A DNA stretch of 64,000 nt from Thermosynechococcaceae cyanobacterium Okahandja (lineage in GTDB: Bacteria > Cyanobacteriota > Cyanobacteriia > Thermosynechococcales > Thermosynechococcaceae). Numbering within the stretch: the first letter of the stretch is position 1; each line of letters opens with the position of its first letter. The translations under genes were made by a program, and so were the position numbers. Below, piece by piece: positions 37,681 through 39,153 of the stretch. The notes under the pieces were generated by a model. It was not told the origin of the DNA, did no database searches, and saw only the letters and a list, made by a program, of their open reading frames with translations. The stretch spans positions 2,480,001 through 2,544,000 of the forward strand of contig CP136945.1 of NCBI GenBank assembly GCA_041530395.1, given 5' to 3'.

Positions 37681-39099
37681 CTAGCTCCACTGGGGGCATT
37701 GGCGGGCAATGAGGACCACGTAATCTCCTAACTGCAACGGATAGTCAGCGGGCGGGTTCACGTAGGTTTGGCGGCGGCCATCCAGACGGCGCTCCACCGC
37801 CACCAAAAGGGCATCGTACTCTTTTTTGAGGTGGCTTTGCACCTGCCAAAAGGACTGGGCGGCAAAGGCACTGGGCAGTGGCAGGCGATAAAACTGGTTC
37901 CCCACCTGCACCGTAATCAGTTCCGCAAACACGTCCATGGCACCTTGGTTGCGCACGGCGTTACCAATCAGGTGGCCGGCCATTTCATCTGCCACCACCA
38001 CGTCTTCTACGCCAGCGGCCTGCAACTGCACGTTATTGTTACGGTCTAGAAGCTGGGCACAGGTGTAAATGCTGGGGTTCAGTTTTTCGATGGTGAGGGT
38101 GGCCAACACCGTGCGGGCATCCCGATCTTGGTCACTGCGGGGTTGGCTGGCATCGGCTAGGAGAATGGCGCGGGAGGCATGGTAAATTTGCACCTTCTCT
38201 AAAACATCGATGCGGGTGTAGTCCCCCTGATGAAAATACAGGCGGTTTTGATCCACGCTGCGCAGTTCATTCAGGGGAAGCTGCTCTAGCTCCACCACAA
38301 TAACAATAGGGGCGTGCCGCGTTTGGGGATCCGCTTGCAGTTCTTGCAGCACAAGGGGGGCGCTACGGTTCCAGCCACACAGGATAATGTGGTTGCGCAG
38401 CTCGTCAAGGTCAAAATTTTTAATATTCATAACCGACTGGAGACGCTTGACCATCAAGGCGGAGACTAAACCGGTAAAGACGGCAAAGAGGGTTAACCCC
38501 GCCAACACCACCACAAGGGTAATGACCCGTCCGGCATGGGTTTGCGGATAGGCCCCAATCGGCTCTGCCGACACTAGGGAAAAGAAGCTGTACCAAAGGG
38601 CATCCCCCAAGTTCTTAATGTCGGGGTTACTCGTTCCTTCGATGATATAGAATGCCAGCCCGCCAAAGAGCATGATCAACACAATCATTAACAGGGCGGA
38701 AATTTGGGCGCTATACACCCGCGAAAACCGCGGTGACAGGTAGTGCAGATTGCGGTTAATTAAAATGGCGGCGCGGGGCAGCCGAAACAGGGGCAGCAGC
38801 CGGAATAGGGTGAACTGCGGTGGCATCGGCAAAATGGCCACCAGATCCAGCCAGTAATGACGGAAAAATCGCCGCTTTTTGCGGGCGATCGCAAACCGCA
38901 CAAACAGTTCAATGAAAAAGCACATCCGCAGCGGTAATTCCGCCAGCATCAGCCCGACGTGGGGTTGCCCTTGGCCGACCCACAAAATATCCACCACCAC
39001 AAGGACGGCGGAGAGCAAAATTAAGATCACCAGCCCCCACTCGACCCGCGGTGAGTGGATAAAAAAATCTAGTTGCTGGCGCAGGCGACCGCGTCCCAT
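37681..39099 (-). CDS. Voltage-gated-like ion channel with RCK/TrkA domain and non-canonical filter
   Basis: A 472-residue protein. Residues about 20-215 contain six membrane segments of the ion-transport fold with a pore loop; an Arg-rich S4-like stretch (LFRLLPLFRLPRAAILINR) is present. The TrkA-N/RCK domain begins at about residue 230 (NHIILCGWNRSAPLVLQEL), and a TrkA-C-like part ends the protein. In a K+ channel the pore would read TVGYG; here it reads SAEPIG (Ser177-Gly182, bases 38554-38571), with WYSFF before and YPQT after exactly as in K+ channels. The ion is therefore uncertain. The ATG at 39099 has GGGGA seven bases upstream. The SRPBCC gene follows four bases after its stop. Confidence 0.85.
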   Translation of the reverse strand: MGRGRLRQQLDFFIHSPRVEWGLVILILLSAVLVVVDILWVGQGQPHVGLMLAELPLRMCFFIELFVRFAIARKKRRFFRHYWLDLVAILPMPPQFTLFRLLPLFRLPRAAILINRNLHYLSPRFSRVYSAQISALLMIVLIMLFGGLAFYIIEGTSNPDIKNLGDALWYSFFSLVSAEPIGAYPQTHAGRVITLVVVLAGLTLFAVFTGLVSALMVKRLQSVMNIKNFDLDELRNHIILCGWNRSAPLVLQELQADPQTRHAPIVIVVELEQLPLNELRSVDQNRLYFHQGDYTRIDVLEKVQIYHASRAILLADASQPRSDQDRDARTVLATLTIEKLNPSIYTCAQLLDRNNNVQLQAAGVEDVVVADEMAGHLIGNAVRNQGAMDVFAELITVQVGNQFYRLPLPSAFAAQSFWQVQSHLKKEYDALLVAVERRLDGRRQTYVNPPADYPLQLGDYVVLIARQCPQWS

Positions 39100-39153
39100 G
39101 GAAATCCCCAACCCAATGGCCTAGCAAGGCGCGATCGCCCCCCAAGGGAACGC

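Follow-up and report, generated by a model that had tools for sequence, protein, structure and literature searches.

A conserved bacterial family of RCK channels with a Glu-Pro pair at the K+ selectivity-filter position

A channel gene with an altered selectivity filter

The window, that is, the whole stretch of 64,000 nucleotides from Thermosynechococcaceae cyanobacterium Okahandja that we analysed, carries on its minus strand an uninterrupted open reading frame (37681-39111) that encodes a channel protein. According to the list of open reading frames and their translations, this frame gives 476 residues from a TTG codon at 39111 and 472 residues from an ATG codon at 39099. We use the ATG as the start, because the alignment of orthologues begins there, and thus place the channel gene at 37681-39099 (minus strand, stop codon 37681-37683), with the in-frame TTG adding four residues. 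The filter region of the translated protein is WYSFFSLVSAEPIGAYPQT. Counted from the ATG, the selectivity-filter position is occupied by S177-A178-E179-P180-I181-G182 (38554-38571, minus strand, read from 38571 to 38554), encoded by TCG GCA GAG CCG ATT GGG. A first-pass annotation of this DNA had reported SAEPIG with exactly these residue numbers and coordinates, and had stated that the codons confirm it without any frameshift. The reading frame, translation and codons bear this out. Moreover, SAEPIG occurs in all Thermosynechococcus relatives that we found, written with different synonymous codons in the orthologues compared, and a sequencing error or frameshift at the filter is therefore ruled out.

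In Thermosynechococcus, the reading frames that flank the channel gene are conserved; in the window these are an upstream reading frame, presumably dxs, and small reading frames. The neighbours are common only to close relatives and not to the whole clade, with no conserved partner-like neighbour found, so we dropped gene neighbourhood as a clue to function. Among plasmid records, all matches are distant, with at most about 25% identity. Related database entries bear the name 'potassium channel family protein'. Elsewhere in the window's own genome, the channel matches a single distant RCK channel (E 1.8e-05; L002, G000:C1:96584-97165, minus strand). Its filter, GVGYGE, is of a more usual kind, so that the organism retains a second channel that is a candidate for K+ conduction.

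Domain architecture and predicted structure

The protein matches the Pfam families Ion_trans (E 1e-10), Ion_trans_2 (2.8e-06), Slo-like_RCK (5.6e-13) and TrkA_N (1.3e-10), all above their cut-offs, and the Slo-like_RCK score (49 bits, cut-off 24) establishes that an RCK domain is present C-terminal to the pore. For structural comparisons we used an AlphaFold2 model built from a 46-sequence alignment (mean pLDDT 84.4), which replaced an earlier model from 22 sequences (pLDDT 66.8) that was poor in the RCK domain. The predicted fold (all coordinates on the minus strand) begins with a voltage-sensor-like domain S1-S4 (residues 17-121; 38737-39051), consisting of helices 17-41, 48-71, 75-88 and 97-121 with block pLDDT values of about 76-94, and matching the BK voltage sensor by profile. 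It continues with the S5 outer pore helix (residues 123-154; 38638-38733), the pore helix (residues 164-177; 38569-38610), which also aligns to the pore helices of K+ channels, and the S6 inner pore helix (residues 188-224; 38428-38538). Pore helix, filter loop and S6 are in the order found in K+ channels. A single cytoplasmic RCK domain (residues 236-472; 37684-38394), supported by Slo-like_RCK and TrkA_N and by VIA-align superposition on the MthK RCK domain and the CASTOR gating ring, completes the protein. The pore-loop fold of K+ channels (outer helix, pore helix, filter, inner helix) is present by alignment, model and fold matches, and the window protein is a BK-like six-helix channel with one RCK domain.

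Among solved structures, Slo/BK, MthK and the CASTOR gating ring come closest in fold. The best whole-chain PDB match to the family profile is human BK, which is matched from S1 to RCK1 (E 1.2e-24); KvAP is matched with E 9e-21. Slo1 also ranked top in Foldseek, in a run on the first, weaker model (pLDDT 66.8). Like the window protein, the eukaryotic K+ channels Slo1/BK and Slo2 have S1-S6 followed by RCK, and whole Slo chains match its fold over 436-461 residues (VIA-align Z 15.5-17.3). However, Slo channels have two tandem RCK domains and TVGYG, whereas the window protein ends after one RCK domain, and the S4 segment of its lineage is partly replaced by proline. The RCK domain of MthK, a Ca2+-gated K+ channel from archaea, superimposes with Z 20.4 (VIA-align; 2.4 Å over 212 residues), and its pore helix and S6 can be aligned as well, but MthK has two transmembrane helices and TVGYG. 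At the positions of the MthK Ca2+ ligands D184, E210 and E212, the alignment reads Asp, Gln (Q349) and Leu (L351) in the window protein, so that only the Asp is kept.

The S4 core (residues 100-110, RLLPLFRLPRA; 38770-38802, minus strand) stands out in our comparison of S4 segments. In the window's lineage, the Thermosynechococcaceae, it has the pattern R100-P103-R106-P108-R109, with arginine replaced by proline at position 103, whereas most other clade members keep RxxRxxRxxR. This contrast suggests that voltage sensing could be a general property of the clade, possibly weakened or lost in Thermosynechococcaceae.

With regard to the filter, the first-pass annotation had aligned the flanking pore with K+ channels, and this alignment holds: the match of a pore profile of 57 clade members to TVGYG pores spans 53 columns and needs no gap (hhalign probability 98, E about 1e-13). 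The replacement is thus positionally exact. S177-A-E179-P180-I-G182 corresponds letter for letter to T-V-G-Y-G-D, E179 taking the place of the first GYG glycine and P180 that of the Tyr, and the TxGYG/TxGFG signature is absent from the window protein.

Conservation of the Glu-Pro pair

We gathered relatives by genome searches and one scan of GTDB contigs, in which the sources were Thermosynechococcus, Symploca, Moorena, Coleofasciculus, Petrachloros, Leptolyngbyaceae, Planctomycetota, Deltaproteobacteria and Myxococcota. The pair at positions 179-180 is EP in 73 of the 83 clade members, QP in eight, DP in one and EM in one (whose filter loop is one residue shorter), and GYG in none. Position 179 is accordingly acidic or the corresponding amide in all 83 members. 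Among 36 representatives with less than 70% identity (mean pairwise identity 40%), P180 is found in all 36 and is as well conserved as any position of the protein, and at position 179 there is Glu in 31 of them and Gln in the other five. The clade filter consensus is [S/A/G]-x-[E/Q]-P-[hydrophobic]-G, with mostly I, V or M at position 181 and no Trp in the six-letter filters listed. Outside the filter, G190 and parts of S6 are, like P180, kept as strongly as the RCK core. These counts answer the question, raised in the first-pass annotation, of whether EPIG is conserved among homologues, and they agree with its proposal that the filter marks a conserved subfamily and is no isolated mutation, as the 83 members come from several phyla. 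TVGYG in close relatives, which had been set beforehand as the refuting observation, was looked for and not found.

Closer to the window, eleven Thermosynechococcus genomes keep the filter. Comparison with one relative (L003) gives dN 0.109 and dS of about 2, with synonymous sites near saturation, which indicates purifying selection. Divergence is lower in the pore (dN 0.056) than in the voltage-sensor part (dN 0.182), and five of the six filter codons differ synonymously, leaving the peptide unchanged.

The closest relative of the window gene (genome G309, L038 / L042) is 91% identical over residues 70-476 and keeps the filter as ISAEPIG. In the S2 region, near residues 70-92, its gene breaks into two reading frames that overlap, through either decay or sequencing error.

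Relationship to TVGYG channels

Bacterial RCK channels that retain a K+ filter are sisters of the Glu-Pro (EP) clade, with homologous RCK domain and pore. Those built like the EP channels have the filter TVGYGD or TVGFGD (L139-L157), and there are also shorter RCK relatives (L074, L007, L041); several are six-helix proteins, and the difference lies in the filter that they keep. Some genomes have both channel types; G707, for instance, has three GYG relatives beside its one EP channel. In a tree of S1-S6 and RCK from which the filter columns were removed, 65 EP rows and 25 GYG rows fall on opposite sides of a single branch (SH-aLRT 96), and in a tree of the RCK domain only, 43 EP rows lie on one side of a single branch (SH-aLRT 87). 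When the tree is rooted on the GYG rows, some of them long-branched, the EP clade falls within the GYG channels. This nesting fits a single loss of the K+ filter, a conclusion of moderate rather than strong confidence that is limited by the rooting and by the quick search method. The sampled family contained no filters intermediate between GYG and EP.

Cyanobacteria have a second family of proteins resembling RCK channels (about 360 amino acids; L010 and L015-L023, e.g. L010:1462-2544), which forms a separate clade in the RCK tree. Its filter region, MGEYPDKP, is two residues shorter than TVGYGDxxP, and its members are about 28% identical to the window protein.

Distribution

We counted matches at E 1e-60 or better in sampled genomes. 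In the window's order, 14 of 29 genomes have an EP relative, and one further genome has a distant TVGYG match. Matches occur in 21 of 246 sampled genomes of Planctomycetota, in 27 of 235 of the phylum to which the Myxococcota record belongs (in about three of these, the only relatives are GYG channels), in 12 of 146 of the phylum of the deltaproteobacterial record, and in 6 of 386 of Cyanobacteria. The first-pass annotation had connected the unusual filter with ion homeostasis in photosynthesis. That link finds little support here, since most members are in non-photosynthetic bacteria, which argues against a specifically photosynthetic role.

Proposed function and alternatives

We consider it fairly likely that the window gene encodes an RCK-gated cation channel of K+-channel descent, in which TVGYGD was replaced once, and which has a ring of four glutamates and is non-selective or permeable to divalent ions. 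The protein would be the subunit of a homotetramer on the BK/Slo plan (S1-S6 plus one RCK), and its four E179 side chains, at the level of the first Gly of GYG, would form an acidic ring. With the near-invariant P180, the backbone could not adopt the GYG geometry and would be held in a different and probably wider filter. The carboxylates would bind cations, which would pass partly hydrated and thus without selection for K+, so that permeation would most likely be non-selective or divalent (Ca2+/Mg2+). A ligand bound to the RCK ring would pull on S6 and open the channel. From what is known of other channels, one point speaks against the E179 ring, namely that side chains in an extended filter of the K+ type face away from the pore. 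The eight members with Gln at position 179 further count against a strict need for charge; the charge may be dispensable, and P180 is perhaps the more fundamental change.

We infer the tetramer, the ring, the permeant ions and the gating; several precedents, together with the expected misfit of proline, speak for this reading. In bacterial Nav channels, filter glutamates form a ring (PMC4436565). NaKTs of Tsukamurella paurometabola has the K+-channel fold with a proline-rich filter, and has lost K+ selectivity and is non-selective (PMC5052707), but it differs from the window protein in having two transmembrane helices, the filter LPMGNGPLSP (for which no similar relatives were reported) and no RCK domain. 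CASTOR is an RCK-ring channel without TVGYG that is Ca2+-selective and has an essential Asp in its acidic filter (PMC6697748). By analogy with these channels, divalent or non-selective permeation is plausible. The Nav analogy should be read as functional guesswork. Bacterial Nav/Cav channels (NavAb, NavMs, CavMr) resemble the window protein in having six helices and one filter Glu (or Asp) per subunit, but theirs is a T-x-E/D-x-W filter with a P2 helix and no RCK domain, whereas the EP filter has the length of a K+-channel filter. We rejected membership in the bacterial Nav family because the pore profile aligns to NavMs in S6 only (hhalign) and the Trp of the Nav filter is absent.

A sharper form of the same account, in which the channel is specifically selective for Ca2+ (divalent ions) and is a bacterial counterpart of the plant nuclear Ca2+ channels CASTOR/DMI1, seems to us rather doubtful. 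CASTOR, POLLUX and DMI1 share with the window protein an RCK ring, the lack of TVGYG and an acidic filter residue (PMC6697748); the CASTOR gating ring matches both the family profile (E 6.9e-16) and the model (VIA-align Z 17.4, 2.6 Å, 229 residues), and 75 of the 83 members have Glu or Asp at position 179. However, the filters differ (ADxGNH, in full AD(S/A)GNHA, as opposed to xxEPxG), the plant channels are predicted to have four transmembrane segments and contain a further soluble half, and Pfam Castor_Poll_mid scores 13.8 bits on the window protein, below its cut-off of 26.7. The Gln variants also weigh against it, and Glu by itself is insufficient for such selectivity, as one-domain Glu rings with an adjacent small neutral non-Gly residue are Na+-permeable (PMC10120453). 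A broader formulation, in which an ancient prokaryotic class of RCK-gated channels passed in one event from a K+ filter to a Glu-Pro filter that conducts Ca2+ or other divalent ions, as a possibly independent bacterial counterpart of CASTOR and other ligand-gated Ca2+ channels, may be entertained tentatively.

That K+ selectivity is retained through another arrangement of the filter backbone is unlikely. The rest of the pore is K+-channel-like, with equal spacing and without gaps, with G190 and S6 conserved, and TVGYG channels are the nearest relatives. The first Gly of GYG lies at the heart of the K+ sites, however, and the GYG glycines are required for a K+ filter; in the clade both are lost from their position and the Tyr is always replaced, with no intermediates in the sampled family. 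It is also quite improbable that the protein conducts no ions itself and joins a canonical RCK K+ channel, as a subunit or sensor, to silence or tune it. Genomes with both types, such as G707, would suit such a role, but P180, G190 and parts of S6 are conserved like the RCK core, the window genome offers only the distant L002 as a possible associate, and no partner-like neighbour is conserved. Finally, the split gene of G309 could be taken to suggest that the window gene is a degenerating or mis-sequenced K+ channel gene of this lineage alone. This is exceedingly improbable, and for the filter itself it is refuted by 83 members without GYG in several phyla, by the codon comparison and by purifying selection.

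The conservation of Glu-Pro across several phyla instead points to an old class of channels, unstudied so far and probably passing ions other than or besides K+. We found no paper describing a Glu-Pro filter in the open-licence literature. The cyanobacterial channel SynK was discovered with the TxGYGD motif as query (PMC2853561), and a clade without this motif is missed or misnamed by motif searches and record names. The EP channels and their GYG sisters constitute a natural experiment in which a single protein architecture exchanged a K+ filter for a different one and near relatives represent either state, and the question of bacterial ligand-gated Ca2+/Mg2+/Na+ channels thereby becomes directly testable. 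A sub-branch in Planctomycetota (L056, L058, L088) has the filter SLQPTLGEP, in which Gln replaces the filter Glu and the subsequent Gly is missing, and is a natural neutral variant that is useful for tests of the acidic ring.
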